Below, in pieces: positions 6,820 through 24,703 of a stretch of 64,000 bases of DNA. Numbering within the stretch: position 1 is the first letter of the stretch; the number at the start of each line of letters is the position of its first letter. The position numbers and the translations under genes are program-made. Origin of the DNA: Acidobacteriota bacterium (GTDB taxonomy: Bacteria; Acidobacteriota; Vicinamibacteria; Vicinamibacterales; JAKQTR01); assembly GCA_026393675.1 (NCBI GenBank), contig JAPKZQ010000004.1, positions 62,001-126,000 on the forward strand, given 5' to 3'. The notes under the pieces are model-generated. The model made no database searches. It saw nothing but the letters and a program-made list of their open reading frames with translations, and was not told where the DNA came from.

Positions 6820-9800
6820 ATGCGAACCTGCCTTGTGCGCGGCATTGCCGTTGTTGCGGTGATGCTCGCGCTGATAGTGCCTGCGTACGCGCAGGAAACG
6901 ACTGCAACTATTACCGGCGTTGTGACCGACGACACGGGGGCCGTGCTTCCCGGCGTGGCGATCATCGCCAAGCACGTCCCGACCGGACGAACCTTCGAGT
7001 TCGTGTCGACGAGCACCGGCGCGTACAGCGCGACGCTGCTGCCGATTGGCGCGTACGAAGTGACATTCACCCTGTCCGGCTTCCAGCCGCTCACGATCAA
7101 GGGCATCACGCTCAACGTCAACGACCGCATCGACGTCAACGGCAAGCTCAAAGTGGGCGGCCTGGCCGAGGTCATCGAGGTCAGGGCCGAGACGATGATG
7201 GTGCAGCCGACGCCGGCCGTGCAGAACCTGGTCGACGCCAAACAGGTCCAGGAGTTGCCGCTCAATAATCGCAACTTTGTGCAGCTCGCCACCCTGGCCC
7301 CGGGTGTCTCGAGCGACCTGCCCGACGAGGTCGGCATCGGCCTGACCAGCACGGTCAGCATCTCGGTCAACGGCTCGCGCCGCAACGCGGTCAACTGGCT
7401 GGTGGACGGCGTGTCGAACGTCGACGTGGGCTCCAATATCACACTGCTCTCGACGCCGACGCTCGAGTCGATCGAGCAGTTCAAGATCATCACGAGCAGT
7501 TACGCGGCCGAGTGGCCCCGCAGCGGCGGCGGCATCGTGAACGTGATCACCAAGTCCGGATCGAAGAAGTACATGGGCGTGGCGTACGACTTCATCCGCA
7601 GCGACGCGTTCAACGCGAATTCCTGGATCCGCAACCGGAGCACCGATCCCACGGTGGCTGGCCACCCGCCGAAGCTCGACTACCAGAACTTTGGCTACAC
7701 CTTTGGCGGCCCCGTGCCGAAAATGAGCGACAAGCTGTTCTTCTTCTGGTCGCAGGAATGGCGCCGCATCACGCGCGCGCCGGCGTCGCTCACGGCCACC
7801 GTGCCGGATCCGACGTGGCTCACCGATCCGACCAGTACGAACTACGTGGACCCGAGCCTGCGCGACCCGAACGCGGTGAAGCTCCTCGCGGCGTATCCGG
7901 CGCCGAATGTGCCCGGCAAGAACCAGTACCTGGTGTCGTCGCCCAACATCAATAACACGCGGCAGGAAGTCATCCGCATGGACTACGACCTGTCGTCGCG
8001 GTGGCGGTTGACGGGCCGGTATACCCACGACCTCAGCCAGACGCGCGAGCTGGGTGGCCTGTGGAACGGCATCGCGATCCCGAATATCGCGACCACCGAG
8101 ACGAACGTGCCGGGCCAGGTCCTCGCACTCCAGCTCAAGACCATCCTCAGCAACAACGCGCTGAACGAGTTCTCGTATCAGAAGTCGGGCAACGTGATTT
8201 CCACGACCAACCCGTCGGACACGAAGGGCATGCGGTCCGACTATGGGATCAACATCCCTGAACTGTTCCCTGAGAACCTCACGAACCGCATCCCGGGCAT
8301 CGCGGTGAGCGGGCTGTCGACGTTCAACTCGATGCAGCTGTACCACATCGAGTACGTCAACCACACGTTCACGGACAACTTCTCGCTGCAGCGGGGCAAC
8401 CACGCATTCAAAGCCGGCGCCCTGATGACCTTCGAGCAGAAGAATGAGAACGCCGCCAACGTCACCCAGGGCAGCTTCTCGTTCGTGGCCTCGACCAACC
8501 CGACCCGGACGGCGTTCCAGAACTTCCTGCTGGGAAATGCCGACGGCCTGTGCACGGCCTGCAGCTATTCCGAGGCCGAGCGCGACGTGACGAACCACCT
8601 GCGCTTCAACCGCTATGAGATGTACGCGCAGGACACCTGGAGAGCGCAGAAGAACCTGACGATTGATCTGGGCGTCCGCTACTCGCTCTACCCGCCCATC
8701 ACCGACGCGAACAACATGCTGGTGACCTTCGATCCGTCGTTCTACAAGGCCGCGACGGCGCCACAGTTCACCAACGCCGCCGGCACCCTGGTTGATCTCT
8801 CGACGGGTGATTGGCTCGACGGCCTGGTCATCGCCGGCAAGAACTCGCCGTATGGCAATGGCATCTACGCGTTCCAGAAGAACAGCATCCAGCCGCGCCT
8901 CGGCTTCTCGTGGGATCCGAAAAGCAGCGGCAACACGATCGTCCGCGGGGCGTTCGGGATCTACTACGACCAGCCGCTGGTCGGCATCTTCGAGCAGAAC
9001 TCATTCAGCAGCCCGCCGTTCGTGAACAATATCAGCCTGACCGGCATCAAGCTCAGCAACCCGGGCGCGGGCGTCACCGGGACAACCACCGGCATGCGTG
9101 CGATCCAGGCGACGTCGCTCGACTTCAAGAACCCGCGAACGACGCAATGGAACGTGGCCATCACCCGCCGGCTGTTCTCAAAAGCCACCATCGAGGTGAG
9201 CTACGTCGGCTCGCGCGGCGACAACCTGATCCGGCCGACCAACCCCAACTTTCCGCAACCCGCCGACGTGGTGGCGCTGCAGAGCACGGTCGCTAGTGCG
9301 GTAAACGCGGCCCGACCGTTCCGATCGTACGGCACCATCACTATGCGCGAGACGACGGCCAAGAGCCGGTATCAGGGTCTGCTCTCCGCGTTCAGATGGC
9401 AGTTCGGCCAAAGCGGGACGCTCTCGGTCAACTACACGCTGAGCCACGTGAAGACCGACTCGACCAACGATCGCGACGCGATTGACATCCCGCAGAACCC
9501 GGCCAACCCGATGGCCGATTACGCGGATGCCCGCACCGACCGCCGGCACATCTTCTCGGCCTCGTACGTCTACGAGATCCCGTTCTTGCGCGACTCCCCC
9601 AACTTCGCCTTGAGAAACATTCTGGGCGGCTGGCAGGTCTCGGGCATCACCTACGTCAACTCGGGCCAGCCAGTGCCGCGCATGTCGGTTGACGTGAATA
9701 ATTTCCGCCGCGGCGGCTTCGCGGATCTGGTCGGCAACCCGATGGTCGGCATGCTGTCCACCAACGGCACGCCGCCGATGTGGTTCAACCCGGCAGCCTT

Positions 9801-10110
9801 CGCGCCGCCCGCCGACGGCACCTTCGGCAATTCGGGCCGGGCGCCATTCCGCCAGCCCGGATTCTACAAGTGGGACATCACCCTGTCGAAGAACTTCTAC
9901 CTGACCAAGGATGTCAGGCTGCAGTTCCGGGCGGACTTTATCAACGCGTTCAACCAGGTCAACTGGGCCTCCGACCCGTCGGCCACGGGCCTGGACAACA
10001 CCTGCACGACCAGCATCACCTCGTGCACGGTTGCGACCGACACGTTCGGCCAGCTCATCGCGGTGCGCGCGCCGCGTGAGATTCAGTTTGGGTTGAAGCT
10101 GTTCTGGTAG
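6820..10110 (+). CDS. Oar-like TonB-dependent receptor with carboxypeptidase-regulatory domain
   Basis: An outer-membrane receptor of 1096 residues. A signal peptide ends near AYAQ (residue 25). The carboxypeptidase-regulatory-like beta-sandwich follows (about 26-110: ATITGVVTDDTGAVLPGV ...). The plug domain runs to about 260, with the common Acidobacteriota pattern QVQELPLNNRNF and VDGVSNVDVGSN. The rest is beta-barrel, with aromatic-rich strands and an LKLFW C-terminus. The family imports polymers, peptides or chelates with TonB/ExbBD energy; the ligand is not deducible. AGGAGGT lies 8-14 nt upstream of the ATG, and a strong terminator follows the stop, so this is a monocistronic gene. Confidence 0.93.
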   Translation: MRTCLVRGIAVVAVMLALIVPAYAQETTATITGVVTDDTGAVLPGVAIIAKHVPTGRTFEFVSTSTGAYSATLLPIGAYEVTFTLSGFQPLTIKGITLNVNDRIDVNGKLKVGGLAEVIEVRAETMMVQPTPAVQNLVDAKQVQELPLNNRNFVQLATLAPGVSSDLPDEVGIGLTSTVSISVNGSRRNAVNWLVDGVSNVDVGSNITLLSTPTLESIEQFKIITSSYAAEWPRSGGGIVNVITKSGSKKYMGVAYDFIRSDAFNANSWIRNRSTDPTVAGHPPKLDYQNFGYTFGGPVPKMSDKLFFFWSQEWRRITRAPASLTATVPDPTWLTDPTSTNYVDPSLRDPNAVKLLAAYPAPNVPGKNQYLVSSPNINNTRQEVIRMDYDLSSRWRLTGRYTHDLSQTRELGGLWNGIAIPNIATTETNVPGQVLALQLKTILSNNALNEFSYQKSGNVISTTNPSDTKGMRSDYGINIPELFPENLTNRIPGIAVSGLSTFNSMQLYHIEYVNHTFTDNFSLQRGNHAFKAGALMTFEQKNENAANVTQGSFSFVASTNPTRTAFQNFLLGNADGLCTACSYSEAERDVTNHLRFNRYEMYAQDTWRAQKNLTIDLGVRYSLYPPITDANNMLVTFDPSFYKAATAPQFTNAAGTLVDLSTGDWLDGLVIAGKNSPYGNGIYAFQKNSIQPRLGFSWDPKSSGNTIVRGAFGIYYDQPLVGIFEQNSFSSPPFVNNISLTGIKLSNPGAGVTGTTTGMRAIQATSLDFKNPRTTQWNVAITRRLFSKATIEVSYVGSRGDNLIRPTNPNFPQPADVVALQSTVASAVNAARPFRSYGTITMRETTAKSRYQGLLSAFRWQFGQSGTLSVNYTLSHVKTDSTNDRDAIDIPQNPANPMADYADARTDRRHIFSASYVYEIPFLRDSPNFALRNILGGWQVSGITYVNSGQPVPRMSVDVNNFRRGGFADLVGNPMVGMLSTNGTPPMWFNPAAFAPPADGTFGNSGRAPFRQPGFYKWDITLSKNFYLTKDVRLQFRADFINAFNQVNWASDPSATGLDNTCTTSITSCTVATDTFGQLIAVRAPREIQFGLKLFW

Positions 10111-10190: not shown

Positions 10191-11711
10191 CTAGTCGAAC
10201 TTACCGACGGCCGCTTCGACCTCGCTCAACAACCCGCCGGACTGCACCAGCGCCTTCATTGCGTTGTGGTCGTTGAACAGCGGCCGGTCCACCTCAAGAT
10301 GCGCCACGTGCCGGCGGATGACCTCCCGCGCCTTAAGCGTGCCCTTGCCGGGCGTGAACGTGCGGAAATCCAGGGCCTGGGCAGCCGCCATCAACTCGAT
10401 CCCGAGCACGCCGTACGCATTGTCGAGAATCTGGCCGTTCTTGAGCGCCGTGTTCATGCCCATCGAAACGAAGTCTTCCTGATCGGCCGCCGCCGGGATC
10501 GACTGAATCGATGCGGGTGCCGAGAGGATACGCTGCTCGACAATCAGGTGATCGGCCGTATACTGGCTGAGCATCAGGCCCGAGTAGAAGCCGGGTTCGT
10601 GAGCCAGGAAGGCCGGCAGGCCCTGTGATAGCGCCGGGTTGGTCAGCCGGTTGAGGCGGCGCTCAGACAGCACCGACACCATCGTGATGGCGACACCGGC
10701 CATATCCATGGGCAGCGCGACCGGCGAACCCTGGAAGTTGGCGCCGGTCAGCGTCAATCGTTGCTCGGGGATGAAGATGGGGTTGTCACCGACGCCGTTC
10801 AGCTCGATCTCGACCTGGGCGCGAGCGTACACGACGGCGTCGCGCGCGGCGCCAATCACCTGGGGCGTCGAGCGCATCGAGTAGGCATCCTGGACCTTGG
10901 TCTTCATCCTGCCCGTGGCCAGGTCGGATCCCTCGATCATCCGCATGATGTTCCGGGCCGACGCGATGGCGCCGGCAAATCCCCGCAGCGTGTGCAGCGT
11001 CGTGTTGTACGGTTTCAGGTTGCCCAGCAACGCCTCGATCGACATCGCGGCCGCGATCTCGGCCTGCCGGATCCAGCGCTGCATGTCGTGGATATGGAGC
11101 GCGGACATCCCGGTGAGCAGGTTCGACCCGTTGATGGTCGCCAGTCCGTCCCGCGCGTGCAGGCCCGGCACGGGAATTCCCGCACGCCGCATCGCCTCCG
11201 CACCAGGCCTGCGTTCACCCTGGTAGAAGGCCTCTCCTTCGCCCATCAGGAGCAGTGCCGCCTGCGCCATCGGCGCGAGATCGCCGCAGGCGCCAACCGA
11301 TCCCTTCTGGCAGACCACCGGGGTCACACCCCTGTTGAGCATCTCGACCAGCGTGAGGGTGATCTCCGGCCGGCACCCGGAATTGCCGTGCGCGTGCACG
11401 TTGATGCGCCCGACCAGTGCCGCGCGCACGTGTTCGACGGGGGCCGGGTCGCCAATACCCGCCGCGTGGTTGTAGACGAGATACCGCTGAAACTCCTTCA
11501 CCTGCTCGTCGTTGAGCACCTTCTCCGAAAACTCGCCGATGCCGGTGTTGGTCCCGTACATGATCTCCCGGGCAGCCAACTTCTCCTCGATCATCAGTCG
11601 GCACACTTTGATCCGTTCACGCGCGGCGGGGGCCAATTGAACCGGGGTCCCATGTCTCGCGACGCTCACCAGTTTCTCAATCGTCAGATTCGATCCGTCG
11701 AGCACGATCAT
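10191..11711 (-). CDS. MIO-type aromatic amino acid ammonia-lyase/aminomutase (HutH-like) with Ala-Cys-Gly triad
   Basis: A 506-residue member of the histidine/phenylalanine ammonia-lyase superfamily, full length. These enzymes remove ammonia from an aromatic amino acid using a methylidene-imidazolone (MIO) cofactor cyclised from Ala-Ser-Gly. Here the loop reads GSVGACGDLAP: Ala141-Cys142-Gly143, the Cys codon TGC lying at 11286-11288 (minus strand). Other catalytic elements are intact: Tyr52 in MYGTNTGIGEF, NGSNLLTGMS, QDAYSMRSTPQV, GNFxGSP-like NFQGSPVALP, and QEDFVSMG, where classical HutH has QEDHVSMG. That Phe and the NTGIGE loop argue against strict histidine specificity, and no hutU/hutI/hutG is nearby. 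It may be a histidine, phenylalanine or tyrosine lyase, or an aminomutase. Confidence 0.88.
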   Translation of the reverse strand: MIVLDGSNLTIEKLVSVARHGTPVQLAPAARERIKVCRLMIEEKLAAREIMYGTNTGIGEFSEKVLNDEQVKEFQRYLVYNHAAGIGDPAPVEHVRAALVGRINVHAHGNSGCRPEITLTLVEMLNRGVTPVVCQKGSVGACGDLAPMAQAALLLMGEGEAFYQGERRPGAEAMRRAGIPVPGLHARDGLATINGSNLLTGMSALHIHDMQRWIRQAEIAAAMSIEALLGNLKPYNTTLHTLRGFAGAIASARNIMRMIEGSDLATGRMKTKVQDAYSMRSTPQVIGAARDAVVYARAQVEIELNGVGDNPIFIPEQRLTLTGANFQGSPVALPMDMAGVAITMVSVLSERRLNRLTNPALSQGLPAFLAHEPGFYSGLMLSQYTADHLIVEQRILSAPASIQSIPAAADQEDFVSMGMNTALKNGQILDNAYGVLGIELMAAAQALDFRTFTPGKGTLKAREVIRRHVAHLEVDRPLFNDHNAMKALVQSGGLLSEVEAAVGKFD

Positions 11712-14820: not shown

Positions 14821-15330
14821 CTACACCGCGACGAAGGCGGTGTGCCACGCGGCGTTCTGCTCGCCCGACTGAATCATCTGCGCCACGTTGACGATGATCG
14901 AGCTGCCGCTGCGCTTGATGGCGAAGCGATCCATGTTGCGGGTGGCACGCCCGCCGACGTAGGTGCCGTCGGGACTGTAGACCGAGTCGTGCTTGCTGCA
15001 CTCGAACCGCAGGTCGGCCTGGCGCCAGCGCACGGCGGCGTTCTGGTGCGGGCACGACAGGTTGAAGGCCATGACCTTTCCCTGAAACCGCACGATGATG
15101 ACCGCGTTCTCGCGGTCGATGGTCACGCCGTCACTGGCGGGGACCGGGTACGTAATCTCGTCGCCTGAGCGTCCAAGGGAGTCGCCCAAGGCTATGGGGA
15201 GTTCGGCGGCCGCAGCGATGCCGCGGCTCCCCGCGACCAGGCCCGCGGCCAGCATGGCCACCTGGCGGATGAAATCCCGGCGTGGGTTGACACATGAACA
15301 CGGGTCGCACCCGTGGGAGGCAGACGTCAT
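14821..15330 (-). CDS. Rieske 2Fe-2S protein with Tat-type leader
   Basis: A 169-residue periplasmic Rieske protein. The cluster ligands are Cys93-x-His95 (SCPHQNAAV) and Cys111-x-x-His114 (CSKHDSVYSPDG), in correct order and spacing. A twin-arginine signal NPRRDFIRQVAMLAAG precedes (Arg17-Arg18). An odd Cys triplet (Cys8, Cys11, Cys13: CDPCSC) lies before the twin arginines. The start is ATG 15330, with GGAGG 8 nt upstream; the preceding gene stops one base before it. Rieske proteins pass electrons from quinol or a donor to a c cytochrome. With the two genes upstream it forms a three-part redox operon; no cytochrome bc1 b-subunit is present. Confidence 0.88.
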   Translation of the reverse strand: MTSASHGCDPCSCVNPRRDFIRQVAMLAAGLVAGSRGIAAAAELPIALGDSLGRSGDEITYPVPASDGVTIDRENAVIIVRFQGKVMAFNLSCPHQNAAVRWRQADLRFECSKHDSVYSPDGTYVGGRATRNMDRFAIKRSGSSIIVNVAQMIQSGEQNAAWHTAFVAV

Positions 15331-15331
15331 G

Positions 15332-16036
15332 TCACTCACCTCCGCCAAACAGCATCATCAGATAGCTGATACCCGAAACGACCATCGACGTGGTGGCGAT
15401 GGCCCGGTGAACCATGCGCTGGTGGTAGTAGTTGTCGACGCCGCCTCTGAGGCTGGGCCGCATGGCGCCAGAAACCGCGAAGCCGGCGTCGGCGGCGAGC
15501 ATCGTGATTCCGTGCAGCATCCGCCGGCCCCGATGGTTCGGATCCTTGCGGCCGTCCCACAGATTCCAGACGCCGGTGACGGTGTTGACCGCGAACAGGC
15601 TCCCGATCGACATCCCCAGCGTGCGGTGCACCGATTGCAGCGACGACGTGATATTGACGGGATACGCGTACATGTACGCGCCAACCCAGTACTCCGCGAC
15701 AAACAGCGGGATCGTCGTGTAGCTGGCGATCTTGTGGATCTTGTTCCTGATCTTGTAGGCGTCGCTGTACTCGACGGCAATCGCGCGTCGCCTCCCGGTG
15801 GTGGCCTGGTCCGCCGCCTCGGCTGCGCCGACATTCGTGGTGCCAATCGAGGGCATCGAGAGCCGTGGTGCCGGAGCGACGCTCGTCGCCGCCCAGTTCA
15901 CCGCCCAGGGACTGCCGCGCATCGGCACATCGGCGCAGGGTTGCCAGGTCGATCGGGCGAACTCATCATCGGCGGATGCCGGCAAGACGCCCCCAAGTAC
16001 CGCGACGACGATCGCGATCGGAAATACGTGACGCAT
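15332..16036 (-). CDS. His-rich four-helix membrane protein, putative b-type cytochrome
   Basis: A 234-residue protein with a signal peptide (cleavage near PASA-D) and four predicted TM helices at about 105-125, 138-158, 172-190 and 211-230. Histidines sit at or near helix ends: His101 (NKIHKIA), His137 (SVHRTLG), His175 (MLHGITM), His205 and His210 (MVHRAIA). The placement suggests one or two b haems, as in cytochrome b561-like proteins, but I cannot assign a family with certainty. It lies between a monohaem c cytochrome and a Rieske protein in one operon, so a quinone-linked or transmembrane electron-transfer role is inferred. Confidence 0.6.
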   Translation of the reverse strand: MRHVFPIAIVVAVLGGVLPASADDEFARSTWQPCADVPMRGSPWAVNWAATSVAPAPRLSMPSIGTTNVGAAEAADQATTGRRRAIAVEYSDAYKIRNKIHKIASYTTIPLFVAEYWVGAYMYAYPVNITSSLQSVHRTLGMSIGSLFAVNTVTGVWNLWDGRKDPNHRGRRMLHGITMLAADAGFAVSGAMRPSLRGGVDNYYHQRMVHRAIATTSMVVSGISYLMMLFGGGE

Positions 16037-16065
16037 AGATGACTCCGAGGTCAGAGGGAGGGGGT

Positions 16066-16470
16066 TTACCGATTCTGCAGGGCGCCGCCAAGCACCCAGT
16101 TCCTGATCATCGTCGACTTGGTCGCCCGGTCGCCGCTCAGCAAGCCGTACATCGAGCCACCAGATCTCGTGGCGACGACCAACCGGGAACTGGCATTACC
16201 GGCGACAACGGCACGCATGACGGCTGTATAGGACGACAGGTCGTATCCAGCCGAGGGGCTTCTGCTGCCGTGGCATCGAACGCAATCGCCATCAAGAATG
16301 GGTTTGACGTCCTGGGTATACGCCGGGGTCGTCCCGGCCGGAGGCGCGACGACGGTGGTTGGTGACGTGGGAGAAGCGGACGAATCGAACGTGCCCGCAG
16401 CACACGCGGACGCGAGCGCAGCCGCCGCCACGGGCACAACCAAACATGCCAATAGGCATCGTGTCTTCAT
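16066..16470 (-). CDS. Monohaem c-type cytochrome, probable lipoprotein
   Basis: A 134-residue exported protein. The signal peptide ends in ALASAC, a weak lipobox with Cys23. A Pro/Thr/Ser-rich linker follows (27-50), then a short cytochrome c domain of the type seen in planctomycete/acidobacterial proteins: TQDVKPILDGDCVRCHG with Cys63, Cys66 and His67. Met127 or Met109 could be the distal ligand. It leads the cytochrome / membrane protein / Rieske operon (29 bp before the next gene) and would act as the electron acceptor or donor of that set. Confidence 0.8.
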   Translation of the reverse strand: MKTRCLLACLVVPVAAAALASACAAGTFDSSASPTSPTTVVAPPAGTTPAYTQDVKPILDGDCVRCHGSRSPSAGYDLSSYTAVMRAVVAGNASSRLVVATRSGGSMYGLLSGDRATKSTMIRNWVLGGALQNR

Positions 16471-16791: not shown

Positions 16792-17442
16792 ATGTCTCAG
16801 ATCTTTCATCCGAGTGCGAACAGCATCGCCCGGATCATGCTCACGGTCACGGTTGTGCTGGTCGCGACAAGCGGCTATCTGGTCTATGAACTCGGCCGTT
16901 CGCCGTACGTCACGCGAGCCTACGAAGCGCGGCAGCAGCCCATCCAGTTCAGCCACGAACGGCATGTCGGCGGTAACGGTCTCGATTGCCGCTATTGCCA
17001 TACCTCGGTCGAGACATCCGCGGTGGCGGGCATCCCGCCGACCAAGGTCTGCATGAACTGTCACTCGCAGATCCTCTCGTCCAGTTCGTACCTGGAGCCG
17101 GTGCGCGCGAGCTTCCGAACTGATCAATCCATCCAGTGGGTCAAGGTGCACGACCTGCCGGATTTCGTGTATTTCAACCACGGCATTCACGTGAACAAGG
17201 GCGTCGGGTGCACGACGTGCCACGGCCAGGTGGACCAGATGCCGCTGATGTGGACGGTCACGACGCTCCAGATGGAGTGGTGCCTCGACTGTCACCGGAA
17301 CCCGGAAAAGTACGTGCGCCCGCGTGGTGCCGTCTTCAGGGTGGACTATCAGCCGCCGGCCGACCAGATGGCACTTGGCCGGAAGCTCGTGCAGGACTAC
17401 CAGATCCAGACGCTCACCAGTTGTTCCACCTGCCATCGGTAA
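16792..17442 (+). CDS. actA: Alternative complex III subunit ActA, pentahaem cytochrome c
   Basis: A 216-residue membrane-anchored multihaem cytochrome. One N-terminal TM helix (about 12-35) is followed by a periplasmic domain with five CxxCH sites: Cys66/69-His70, Cys87/90-His91, Cys140/143-His144, Cys164/167-His168 and Cys211/214-His215. Five haems, the cytochrome c7/c3-like pattern and the position before actB fit ActA of ACIII, the menaquinol:cytochrome c oxidoreductase that replaces bc1 in many bacteria. The start codon ATG 16792 has no clear Shine-Dalgarno; the hydrophobic helix begins just after it. First gene of the ACIII-caa3 cluster. Confidence 0.9.
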   Translation: MSQIFHPSANSIARIMLTVTVVLVATSGYLVYELGRSPYVTRAYEARQQPIQFSHERHVGGNGLDCRYCHTSVETSAVAGIPPTKVCMNCHSQILSSSSYLEPVRASFRTDQSIQWVKVHDLPDFVYFNHGIHVNKGVGCTTCHGQVDQMPLMWTVTTLQMEWCLDCHRNPEKYVRPRGAVFRVDYQPPADQMALGRKLVQDYQIQTLTSCSTCHR

Positions 17443-17461
17443 GACCACTTCCAGCAGACGC

Positions 17462-20514
<3,053 letters not shown>

Positions 20515-20518
<4 letters not shown>

Positions 20519-20542
20519 TTCTTGATGCTTGTTCCTTGCTTC
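20515..20542 (+). repeat. Four degenerate 7-bp repeats at the actB/actC junction
   Basis: Consecutive heptads TTGATTC, TTGATGC, TTGTTCC and TTGCTTC. The actB stop codon lies in the first unit, and actC begins 5 bp after the last. The composition is lower in GC than the surroundings. Confidence 0.6.
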
Positions 20543-20546
20543 TGAC

Positions 20547-21959
20547 ATGGATGACGGAATGTCCGACGATACCAACGTGATGCCGACTTCGGGTGCCGCG
20601 GGCCACGAACCGCGGCCGGCGTTCATCGCGCCGGGCCATTCGTTCGCGACGGTCACCGACAAGATCAGCTCGATCGTCCTGACGCAGAAGTTCTCAGTGG
20701 GCTGGTTGGCCGGGCTGACCGTCTCGTCGATGCTGGCTGCACTGCTGCTTGTGTCGGTCGGTTACCTGTTCACCAAGGGCATCGGCATCTGGGGCAACAA
20801 CATCCCGGTCGGCTGGGCATTCGACATCACGAATTTCGTCTGGTGGATCGGCATCGGCCACGCGGGCACGCTTATCTCGGCCATCCTGCTGCTCCTGCGT
20901 CAGCAGTGGCGCACTTCGATCAACCGGTTCGCCGAGGCGATGACGCTGTTTGCCGTCGCCTGCGCCGGCATGTTCCCGCTGATTCATGTCGGCCGCCCGT
21001 GGCTGGCCTACTGGCTGCTGCCCATCCCGAACACGATGACGGTCTGGCCGCAGTTCAGGAGTCCGCTGATCTGGGACGTGTTTGCCGTCTCGACTTACGC
21101 CACCGTGTCGTTGCTCTTCTTTTTTGTGGGTCTCATCCCCGACCTCGCCACGTTGCGCGATCGCACACCGTCGAAGATCGGACGGGTGATCTACGGCATC
21201 TTCGCGATGGGCTGGCGGGGCTCGGCCATGCACTGGCACCGCTACGAGACGGCCTACCTGCTGCTGGCCGGCCTGGCGACCCCACTGGTGGTCTCGGTGC
21301 ACACGATCGTGAGCTTCGACTTCGCGGTCTCGCTCATCCCGGGCTGGCATACGACGGTGTTCCCGCCGTACTTCGTCGCCGGCGCCATCTACTCGGGATT
21401 TGCGATGGTGCTGACGCTGGCGATTCCGATCCGGGCGATTTACGGACTCGGCGACTTTATTACGAAGCGGCATCTCGACGTGATGGCCAAGGTCATGTTG
21501 TCGACGGGCCTGATCGTGGCGTACGGCTACTTGATGGAAGCCTTCATCTCCTGGTACAGCGGCAACATCTACGAACGCTCAACCATGTGGAACCGCATGA
21601 CCGGACCGTACTGGTGGGCGTACTGGAGCCTGATCCTCACCAACGTCGCGATCCCGCAATTGCTGTGGGCCAGGCGGGTGCGGGCCAATGTCGTGGCACT
21701 CTGGATGCTGTCGATCGTCATCAATATCGGGATGTGGCTCGAGCGCTTCGTCATCATCGTGACGAGCCTGCACCGGGATTTCCTGCCCTCGTCGTGGGGC
21801 ATGTACCGGCCGTCGTTCTGGGATTGGTCGACCTTCGTCGGCACGCTTGGGTTGTTTTTGACGCTGCTGTTCCTGTTTATCCGCTTCCTGCCGATGATCT
21901 CGATTTTCGAGATGCGCACCATGGTGCCGGGAGCGCGGGTGGAGCGACACGGAGAGTAG
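20547..21959 (+). CDS. actC: Alternative complex III subunit ActC, NrfD/PsrC-like membrane quinol protein
   Basis: A ~470-residue integral membrane protein with about ten TM helices, the NrfD/PsrC fold. Landmarks include [63 protein letters not shown] and YYxxLM-like [18 protein letters not shown] (cited in part). ActC carries a quinol-binding site and probably ion-conducting half-channels. The start is uncertain: ATG 20547 is used, ATG 20559 and TTG 20529 are alternatives, and none has a good Shine-Dalgarno. The preceding 28 bp are heptad repeats. Confidence 0.88.
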
Positions 21960-22316
21960 GGATGCCCGCCTTCGCCCGCGGATTGTCAACGGGCTTCGGC
22001 GGGCAAGCGGGATTGGGGATTCGGGGGGAGCCCGCAGGCGCGGGTGTTCGTGTCGGTGGGAGGACGGCTTCCAAAGCGGCCCCTCGAACCAAGCCGACAG
22101 CGAAGTCCTGAGCGAAGTCGAAGGGCGTCAGTTTGCAAAACCTGCCGTGAGGGCCAAGACAGGCAGGGGGATCGGGGCCCCGGATCGTAAGGTCGGCGTC
22201 ACGTCCCGGCAAGGCGCGTTTTGCGGGCTTGCGTGAGCGGGGACGCGGAGGAACTGTCATCCCGCAAGCGCGAGGCTGCGCGCAGAGAGCAAGAAGAGGG
22301 AGTTCGGGATACGACT
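21960..22316. other. 357-bp intergenic insertion between actC and actD
   Basis: This spacer is unusual inside an otherwise tightly packed operon (other gaps are 0-80 bp). It has no gene. Most of it is copy A of the dispersed repeat (22058-22258); the rest is GC-rich filler and the actD leader with AAGAAGAGGGAG, a possible Shine-Dalgarno region. Confidence 0.7.
22058..22258. repeat. Dispersed ~200-bp repeat, copy A
   Basis: Shares long blocks with copies B (29927-30099) and C (45727-45899): GGGAGGACGGCTTCC (A and C), GCGGCCCCTCGAACCAAG, CGACAGCGAAGTC, TAAGGTCGGCG (A, B), ACGTCCCGG and TGAGCGGGGACGCG. A and B contain a module CCTGAGCGAAGTCGAAGGG with flanks that C lacks. All copies are intergenic. 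Confidence 0.8.
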
Positions 22317-22853
22317 ATGGCTGAACAACCGCTCTACGGCCTGATGGCCGAATTCGAGAGTCCGACCGCGTTGGTCGCCGCGGCCCACAAGGCGCGCGAG
22401 GCCGGCTACCGGAAGATGGATGCGTACTCCCCGATCCCCATCGAGGAGCTGCACGAGGCTCTCGGGTTACCGACGACGAAGCTCCCGATGCTGGTCGCAG
22501 GCGGCGCGCTCGTCGGCGCGCTGACGGGATTCGGTCTCCAGGTGTGGGCGTCGACGGTGGCATACCCCATCAACATCGGCGGACGGCCGCTGTTGAGTTG
22601 GCCGTCGTTCATCCCGCCGACTTTCGAAACAGCCATCCTGTTTGCGGCCTTGGCGGCGGTATTCGGGATGCTGGCCCTCAACGGTCTGCCGATGCCCTAT
22701 CACCCGGTGTTCAACGCTACGCGGTTCGTCATGGCCAGCCGCGATCGGTTCTTCCTCTGCATCGAGGCGCGGGATCTGAAATTCGATCTGGCGGCGACGC
22801 GCCAGTTCCTCCAGGGGTTGGCTCCGCGCGAGGTGTCCGACGTTGAGAACTAG
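22317..22853 (+). CDS. actD: Alternative complex III subunit ActD (DUF3341)
   Basis: A 178-residue membrane protein with two TM helices (about 58-80 and 103-125) around a short periplasmic loop with TVAYPINIGGRPLLSWPSF, the DUF3341 hallmark. The N-terminal cytoplasmic part (LMAEFESPTALVAAAHKAREAGY) is also family-typical. ActD is a structural subunit of ACIII. The start is ATG 22317, where homology begins. The end overlaps the TTG start of actE by 11 bp. Confidence 0.9.
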   Translation: MAEQPLYGLMAEFESPTALVAAAHKAREAGYRKMDAYSPIPIEELHEALGLPTTKLPMLVAGGALVGALTGFGLQVWASTVAYPINIGGRPLLSWPSFIPPTFETAILFAALAAVFGMLALNGLPMPYHPVFNATRFVMASRDRFFLCIEARDLKFDLAATRQFLQGLAPREVSDVEN

Positions 22854-23439
22854 CACGACGCTGGCATTGTTGGCGGCGGGCCTGCTGATGGCCGGCTGCC
22901 GGCAGGACATGCACGACCAGCCAAAGTTCAAGCCGTACGCGAAGAGTGATTTCTTCGCCGACCAGCGATCAGCCCGGCCGCTGGTCGACGGCACCATCGC
23001 GCGCGGACAGCTGCGAGACGACGAACTGCTCGAGACGGGCAAGGTGGCAGGTAAGCCATCCGACCTGTTTCCGTTCCCCATCACGGCGTCCGTGCTGGAA
23101 CGCGGTCACGATCGCTACGACATCTACTGTTCACCGTGCCATGGACGGACCGGCCAGGGCGACGGCATGATCGTGCGGCGAGGCTATCGCCGGCCGCCCT
23201 CGTTTCATCAGGATCGCCTCAGGCAGGCCGCGCCCGGATACCTCTTCGATGTGACGTCGCGCGGGTTCGGTGCGATGCCCGACTACGCGACGCAGGTGCC
23301 GGCACACGATCGGTGGGCGATAATCGCCTACCTGAGAGTCTTGCAGCGGAGCCAGCGGGCCACGCTGGCCGACGTGCCCGAGCGAGATCGGCGGCAGCTC
23401 GAGGCGGCAGGCAAACGCGAACCACGACAGCCGCAGTAG
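22843..23439 (+). CDS. actE: Alternative complex III subunit ActE, monohaem cytochrome c lipoprotein
   Basis: A 198-residue lipoprotein with signal peptide and lipobox LLMAGC (Cys19). The cytochrome c domain has CSPCHG (Cys96, Cys99, His100) preceded by ITASVLERGHDRYDIYC, as in ActE. FGAMPDYATQV provides the likely distal Met. ActE receives electrons from ActA and hands them to the oxidase. The start codon is TTG within the end of actD; no in-frame ATG/GTG fits before the lipobox. Confidence 0.88.
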   Translation: MRTSTTLALLAAGLLMAGCRQDMHDQPKFKPYAKSDFFADQRSARPLVDGTIARGQLRDDELLETGKVAGKPSDLFPFPITASVLERGHDRYDIYCSPCHGRTGQGDGMIVRRGYRRPPSFHQDRLRQAAPGYLFDVTSRGFGAMPDYATQVPAHDRWAIIAYLRVLQRSQRATLADVPERDRRQLEAAGKREPRQPQ

Positions 23440-23518
23440 GTGGCTCAGAGGATCCCGGGCCACACCGTGGGGTTGAGGAAAGGCCTGGGCGCGGGGATTG
23501 GAACCGGACAGTAACGAC

Positions 23519-24703
23519 ATGCACGACGCGACGTACACACCACCCGCCAGTCTCGACGCGCTGCGCCGGCGGTCGCTTATTATCGGGATCGTCGGCCTGG
23601 TCGCCTCCGGGGCCGGCGGGTTCATCAACCCGAATCAGTTTCTGCACTCGTACCTCCTGGGATTTCTGCTGTGGCTCGCCGCCGCGCTCGGCGGCCTGGC
23701 ATTGACAATGCTGCAGCACATGAGCGGCGGCGGATGGGGTGTGGTGCTCCGGCGGATCTTCGAGGCCGCGGCCCGAACGCTGCCCTGGATGGCCCTGTTC
23801 TTCGTGCCGATCGCGTTGGGCGCCACCCGCCTCTACCCGTGGACTGACGCGGCCCGCGTCGCGGCCGATCACGTGCTGACGGAAAAGGCCCTGTACCTGA
23901 ACCTGCCGTTTTTCTACGCGCGTGCCGTGCTGTATTTCGCGGTGTGGTGCGGCCTCGCCTGGTTCCTGACGAAGTGGTCGGCCGAGCAGGATGTGACCGG
24001 CGCCCCGGATCTGCAGCGGCGGATGCGGGCAATGAGCGCCATCGGCCTGGTCGTTTACGTGTTGACGATGACGTTTGCGTCGATTGACTGGGGCATGTCG
24101 CTCGAACCGCACTGGTTCTCGACGATGTACGGGTTCCTCTTTATCGGCGGTCAGGCCCTGATGGGACTCTCGATCGCCATTGTCATGGCGAGGCGGTTGT
24201 CACTCGAGCCGCCGATGTCGGGCGTCTTCAACGCGGGGCACTTCCACGATTTCGGCAAGCTGCTGTTCGCGTTCACGATGGTGTGGGCGTACCTGTCTTT
24301 CTCGCAGTTCCTGATCATCTGGTCGGCGAATCTGCCCGAGGAAATTCCGTGGTACATCCACCGGATGCACGGCGGGTGGCAGTCGATCGGGATCGGGTTG
24401 ATGCTCTTCCACTTCGCCGTACCGTTCGTAGTGCTCGTGAATCGGAAGGCCAAGCGGAACTCCGCGATCCTGGCCGGCATGGCGCTGTGGATGATCGCGG
24501 TGCGCTTCCTCGATCTGTTCTACATCATCGGGCCTGAGGCCTACCCGGATGGATTGCGCCTCCACTGGCTCGATGTCGCGACGGTGGTCGGCATCGGCGG
24601 CGTCTGGATGGCGCTCTTCGCGGCGAACTTGAAGGGCCGCCCGTTGCTGCCGCTCAAGGATCCGGAACTAGCGAGCGCGCTGCGGGGACCGGAGGGGCAC
24701 TAG
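23519..24703 (+). CDS. actF: Alternative complex III subunit ActF
   Basis: A 394-residue membrane protein with about ten TM helices, related to ActC but truncated in the quinol region. Typical stretches are FLHSYLLGFLLWLAAALGG, LTMTFASIDWGMSLEPHWFS, MVWAYLSFSQFLIIWSANLPEEIPWY (partly cited) and the C-terminal LPLKDPEL. It completes the ACIII set. ATG 23519 is chosen over an in-frame TTG at 23498. The 79-bp gap from actE has no notable feature. Confidence 0.9.
   Translation: MHDATYTPPASLDALRRRSLIIGIVGLVASGAGGFINPNQFLHSYLLGFLLWLAAALGGLALTMLQHMSGGGWGVVLRRIFEAAARTLPWMALFFVPIALGATRLYPWTDAARVAADHVLTEKALYLNLPFFYARAVLYFAVWCGLAWFLTKWSAEQDVTGAPDLQRRMRAMSAIGLVVYVLTMTFASIDWGMSLEPHWFSTMYGFLFIGGQALMGLSIAIVMARRLSLEPPMSGVFNAGHFHDFGKLLFAFTMVWAYLSFSQFLIIWSANLPEEIPWYIHRMHGGWQSIGIGLMLFHFAVPFVVLVNRKAKRNSAILAGMALWMIAVRFLDLFYIIGPEAYPDGLRLHWLDVATVVGIGGVWMALFAANLKGRPLLPLKDPELASALRGPEGH

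Follow-up and report, generated by a model that had tools for sequence, protein, structure and literature searches.

A b561-like, 4TM and Rieske gene cassette of Acidobacteriota and Gemmatimonadota: a putative electron module and its likely derived copy

Three genes on the minus strand of the window (the whole stretch of 64,000 nucleotides that was analysed) encode a c-type cytochrome, a b561-like membrane protein and a Rieske protein. In this study, we found that the conserved unit is not this trio; it consists of the b561-like protein, a second membrane protein with four helices (4TM) and the Rieske protein. We lean slightly towards the view that the window carries a derived version of a cassette with the order (cyt c)–b561-like–4TM–Rieske, a putative module for electron transfer between the quinone pool and the periplasm. 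The sequences themselves show the gene order, the co-occurrence, the invariant His residues, Rieske and haem c motifs that are both intact, and the loss of 4TM.

A Rieske protein together with a dihaem membrane cytochrome is known chiefly from the bc1/b6f complexes, which descended from one cytochrome b. The component kinds found here are known; what seems new is that a b561-type core is paired with a Rieske protein. The gene set, shared by mostly uncultured Acidobacteriota and Gemmatimonadota, is apparently undescribed; a search of the open-licence literature, whose coverage is incomplete, found no paper on it. If the reading is true, the link in two phyla between a Rieske protein, a dihaem core of the b561 type and a further small membrane protein would be a separate membrane-to-periplasm solution, and its hosts would be abundant soil and freshwater bacteria.

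Gene order in the window and in related genomes

The three window ORFs are intact and encode the cytochrome c (16470–16066, 134 aa), the membrane protein (16036–15332, 234 aa) and the Rieske protein (15330–14821, 169 aa from the ATG). They are separated by gaps of 29 bp (16037-16065) and 1 bp (15331), so the positions and tight packing given in the first-pass annotation were confirmed. The annotation had also taken the trio for a possible minimal quinol-cytochrome module. That the trio is complete as such a module is not supported, because a conserved four-helix gene has been lost from the window copy.

We examined the distribution of the set by scanning 84,980 species genomes, which gave 100 loci; 80 were kept, all apparently from Acidobacteriota or Gemmatimonadota. 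The b561-like, 4TM and Rieske genes occurred together and collinear in 54 of the 70 loci with enough flank, counts that contain a few loci from closely related genomes. The other 16 had the Rieske gene only (3 loci, the window included), a weaker second Rieske only (7) or neither (6). The commonest gene order was b561–4TM–Rieske, and the 4TM gene, for a protein of about 160 aa, lay between the other two in nearly all relatives examined. Among 100 relatives searched within the order, 13 had the membrane protein, the window's own genome counted. In 396 Acidobacteriota genomes, strong matches to 4TM (E<1e-40) and to the Rieske protein (E<1e-20) were found in exactly the same 8 genomes, 3 of which belong to one genus. 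The b561 profile matched these 8 (one, G284, as a fragment) and one further genome with b561 alone; all three genes are present in G004. This co-occurrence is far from chance. No other gene family held a fixed place beside the cassette in about 80 loci, and a search of plasmid DNA gave no match.

These results bear on the trio as a conserved redox set. The annotation had named two outcomes that would count against it, and the checks on them gave no refutation: the set was found conserved, with relatives collinear in dozens of genomes, and the membrane protein had no match above cut-off to a non-redox family. Co-occurrence of b561-like and Rieske genes was observed in the neighbourhood survey; the third constant partner is 4TM, the cytochrome c is rare, and the window trio itself is incomplete for want of the 4TM gene.

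The cytochrome c is a probable lipoprotein, with an atypical lipobox (ASAC). It has a single CxxCH motif (16270-16284), as the annotation had it, and matches the Pfam families PSCyt1 (24.0 bits) and PccH (24.8 bits), both just reaching the cut-off. A similar monohaem cytochrome, 41–47% identical over the core, is encoded directly upstream of b561 in L045, L037 and L043. L045 has the cytochrome c and b561 genes without Rieske and 4TM, and L037 and L043 have the cytochrome c with the full cassette. Because the cassette thus occurs with all four genes (cyt c–b561–4TM–Rieske), the annotation was right to count the cytochrome c in; yet with 4 of about 70 loci, it is an occasional member of the cassette.

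The genome holds a sister locus (L020) on contig C29, with the order second b561, divergent small lipoprotein, 4TM and Rieske. The second b561 is 52% identical to the window b561-like protein, the two Rieske genes are 90% identical in DNA, and the only strong 4TM match of the genome is on C29. The window stretch 15327..15391 on the minus strand, which holds the 3' end of the b561 gene and a ribosome-binding site, is identical at 55 of 65 positions (85%) to L020:8841–8905. On C29 this 65-bp remnant lies directly upstream of the 4TM gene; in the window it runs straight into the Rieske start and marks the junction of the lost 4TM. In the simplest reading of these sequences, the first event was the duplication of a block with b561, 4TM and Rieske genes, after which the window copy would have lost 4TM and the C29 copy its counterpart b561. 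The C29 4TM protein may serve both copies. Small divergent lipoprotein genes were also seen upstream of the cassette, at L020:8202-8717, L021:5810-6301 and L137:6914-7456.

Single components have been lost in other genomes too, which speaks against the cassette parts forming a strictly obligate complex. The b561 gene stands alone at L059 and L106, and from the sequences b561 seems to have been lost repeatedly across genomes. We also observed 4TM and Rieske genes without an intact b561, as on C29, at L137 (G003:C107, b561 lost) and L142 (G284:C16, fragment). At L034, in the complete genome G007, the b561 gene (9319-9852) has an in-frame TAG at a Trp codon of G019, and 4TM and Rieske are intact despite this stop codon.

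The b561-like and 4TM membrane proteins

The membrane protein (15332..16036, minus strand) has an N-terminal signal-like segment followed by four predicted helices, each with one invariant His near its start, which bears out the description of a four-helix protein with His at helix ends. Four His residues were invariant (100%) in 83 homologues: His101 (15734-15736), His137 (15626-15628), His175 (15512-15514) and His210 (15407-15409). Further invariant residues were Arg97, Pro110, Gly119, Phe148, Asn151, Thr154, Gly155, Asn158 and Arg163. An AlphaFold model gave confident helices at 92–124, 131–162, 169–191 and 200–231, with pLDDT of about 75-90. In the up-down bundle that we infer from this model, His101 would face His175 on one side and His137 would face His210 on the other. 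In the cytochrome b561 family, the two haems are ligated by H1/H3 and H2/H4 (PMC10691727), and the pairing of His101 with His175 and of His137 with His210 would match this published pattern.

The family profile matched the plant cytochrome b561 4o6y weakly (E 0.086), with all four His falling on its four His. Helices 1–2 aligned to 4o6y residues 116–177 and helices 3–4 to residues 49–99, placing H101/H137 on H118/H157 and H175/H210 on H51/H84. Such a circularly shifted order would fit a b561 core built as an internal two-fold repeat. Like the cytochrome b561 family (PF03188; CYB561/CYBDOM), the protein has an invariant His near the beginning of every one of its four successive helices, with about 35-38 residues from one His to the next. 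It differs from that family in its Pfam score, which is below the cut-off (14.8 bits against 23), and in having four predicted helices where the family has six; unlike CYB561/CYBDOM it is bacterial, and its genomic partner is a Rieske protein, not a DOMON domain. Judged by its conserved residues, the protein carries a b561-core-like signature and lies outside the cytochrome b561 family by Pfam's rule.

Database searches agree with the first-pass annotation, which could name no sure family. No Pfam family, and so no non-redox family, matched the membrane protein at cut-off, and NCBIfam returned nothing. A single-sequence query of PDB found no sequence relative, and PHROGs gave one weak match to an entry of unknown function. 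The HMM search proposed for b561 or DUF families gave sub-threshold matches to both PF03188 and DUF4079 and none above cut-off. PF03188 was reached at E<0.01 by only 2 of 55 relatives. The most frequent sub-threshold match was DUF4079 (PF13301; 29 of 55 family members, best E 1.1e-5), an uncharacterised family; no member whose score is shown exceeded its curated cut-off. The E. coli superoxide oxidase CybB, a prokaryotic b561, was considered as a relative and gave no profile match. A structure search with the model returned mostly generic four-helix bundles; the matches also included cytochrome b6 and 4D2, a designed dihaem protein. Cytochrome b6 matched by fold with Z 11.9 and rmsd 3.4 A over 132 residues, a level that generic helical bundles reach as well, and 4D2 matched weakly in both sequence (E 0.00075) and fold. 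Cues to topology conflict. The loops with the most positive net charge are those before helix 1 (+2.2) and between helices 2 and 3 (+1.9), the other two having +0.3 and -0.05, and the positive-inside rule favours the orientation opposite to that given by the signal-like segment.

In bc1 cytochrome b, the His residues stand as two pairs on two helices, whereas the b561-like protein has one His per helix. The Pfam matches of the three window proteins included no cytochrome b family. These results suggest that the membrane protein is probably a dihaem b561-like core, and not a bc1-type cytochrome b.

The 4TM protein has two His residues, His33 and His73, that were invariant in 57 sequences, and it may bind a haem. 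Weak matches in 52 members were to DUF2214 (35/52), DUF6644 (27/52) and UPF0093 (HemJ; 8/52). These matches were mostly below cut-off, and 4TM forms a distinct, tightly linked clade set apart from the three families. Its model reached a pLDDT of 96.6, and structure searches with it found no discriminating relative. Mutual homology of 4TM and the b561-like protein was rejected by comparison.

The Rieske protein and its leader

The Rieske protein matched PF00355 at 32.1 bits (cut-off 20.3) and has twin arginines at residues 17-18, so its identification as a Tat-type Rieske protein was upheld. The cluster motif CPH-x15-CSKH (14989..15054, minus strand) has Cys and His residues that were 100% conserved in 55 Rieske homologues. 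Rieske proteins of the bc1/b6f type have a second Cys in each cluster box, forming a disulfide; the boxes here, CPHQN...CSKH, are without this pair. In bc1 Rieske proteins, a Ser and a Tyr after the second box raise the potential. Both are kept in the cassette family, Ser116 in 100% and Tyr118 in 94% of members. The best NCBIfam match was the arsenite oxidase small subunit AioB (TIGR02694), which likewise has a Tat leader, at 29.9 bits against a cut-off of 95.65. The cassette differs from AioB in that no arsenite oxidase large subunit is among the conserved neighbours.

The leader carries the Cys triplet that had been noticed at residues 8, 11 and 13 (Cys8-x2-Cys11-x-Cys13; 15292..15309, minus strand), directly before the twin-arginine motif, and its C8xxC11 pair is kept across the family. 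A CxxC before the Tat motif was present in 39 of 57 Rieske members, in most cases 2–5 residues ahead of the twin arginines; 53 of 57 have one Cys or more there. As a control, CxxC was found in 1 of 16 other Tat-like ORFs of those loci, and that one is the ORF immediately downstream of the cassette Rieske gene in L081. The pre-Tat Cys pair is thus a conserved trait of exported Fe–S proteins that still lacks an explanation. A second Rieske of lipoprotein type (CPHxGxTV...CPNHGA), with a Tat motif, is frequent just downstream of the cassette in Gemmatimonadota. Loci with it include L046, L066, L080, L110 and L112, often with a pre-Tat CxxC as well, and loci with only this second Rieske include L078, L084, L087, L088 and L090.

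Proposed electron path and its alternatives

Like bc1/b6f, the window set combines a dihaem-type membrane protein, as predicted here, with a Rieske protein and a cytochrome c. In the path that we propose, the b561-like protein would bind two stacked b haems across the membrane, one held by His101/His175 and the other, on the opposite side, by His137/His210. A membrane donor, most likely quinol, would deliver electrons to these haems, and from there they would pass, perhaps by way of a 4TM haem, to the Rieske protein, which is exported and would hand them on to the cytochrome c where present. The more specific version, that the b561-like, 4TM and Rieske proteins form a membrane complex carrying electrons from quinol to periplasmic cytochrome c around a b561-type core unrelated by sequence to bc1/b6f cytochrome b, is offered tentatively, as one possibility among several.

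Eukaryotic b561 proteins are transmembrane reductases (PMC10691727), and the b561-like and 4TM proteins could likewise be a transmembrane reductase or a scavenger, with ferric reduction, superoxide or the redox balance of quinones as its task; the Rieske protein would then act as a periplasmic sensor or electron buffer and not as a step towards cytochrome c. Most loci are without a cytochrome c and no substrate enzyme is linked, in keeping with such a role. However, the missing profile match to CybB speaks against it, as does the cytochrome c gene found ahead of b561 in the window and in three relatives, and we regard this role as possible and rather doubtful. The self-contained carrier set without a fixed enzyme neighbour, together with the Tat export signal of its Rieske protein, would also suit a cassette that feeds an unlinked periplasmic enzyme with the Rieske protein as soluble shuttle. 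MsrQ, which supplies electrons to MsrP, offers an analogy. No candidate enzyme co-occurred in the cassette neighbourhoods, however, and we consider such a shuttle unlikely.

The window copy might instead be a decaying duplicate without a function of its own, given the 4TM loss in the window, the reciprocal b561 loss on C29 and the b561 losses in other genomes. Against this, the three ORFs are intact with complete cofactor motifs, and the dN of 0.061 and dS of 0.287 between the two Rieske copies show purifying selection; decay appears improbable. The reading that we prefer remains a derived copy of a putative quinone pool/periplasm module.

The annotation had further noted that the operon diverges from a cluster for alternative complex III (ACIII), the enzyme that normally replaces bc1; a tie of the set to ACIII and a role as stand-in for bc1 were therefore considered. 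A divergent ACIII-like cluster (16792..24703, plus strand) starts 321 bp from the cytochrome c gene start, and its profile matches indicate a multihaem cytochrome c, a MoCo/FeS-like protein, two NrfD-like proteins, an ActD-like protein and a cytochrome c. It is a neighbour and not part of the cassette; the adjacency is local to the window and did not recur in about 80 loci, so a functional tie to ACIII was rejected. A necessary replacement of bc1 was rejected too, because, besides the ACIII of the window, the genome encodes a Rieske/cytochrome b pair on contig C15, where its sole PF13631 match lies. After the pair at this C15 locus (L139; G000:C15:216000-232000) come a 751-aa ORF, which has eight CxxCH motifs, and a monohaem cytochrome c; this is a multihaem bc-type complex of an unusual kind. 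Elsewhere in the window, a 506-aa ORF (10191-11711, minus strand) resembles an aromatic amino acid (histidine) ammonia-lyase by sequence inspection.
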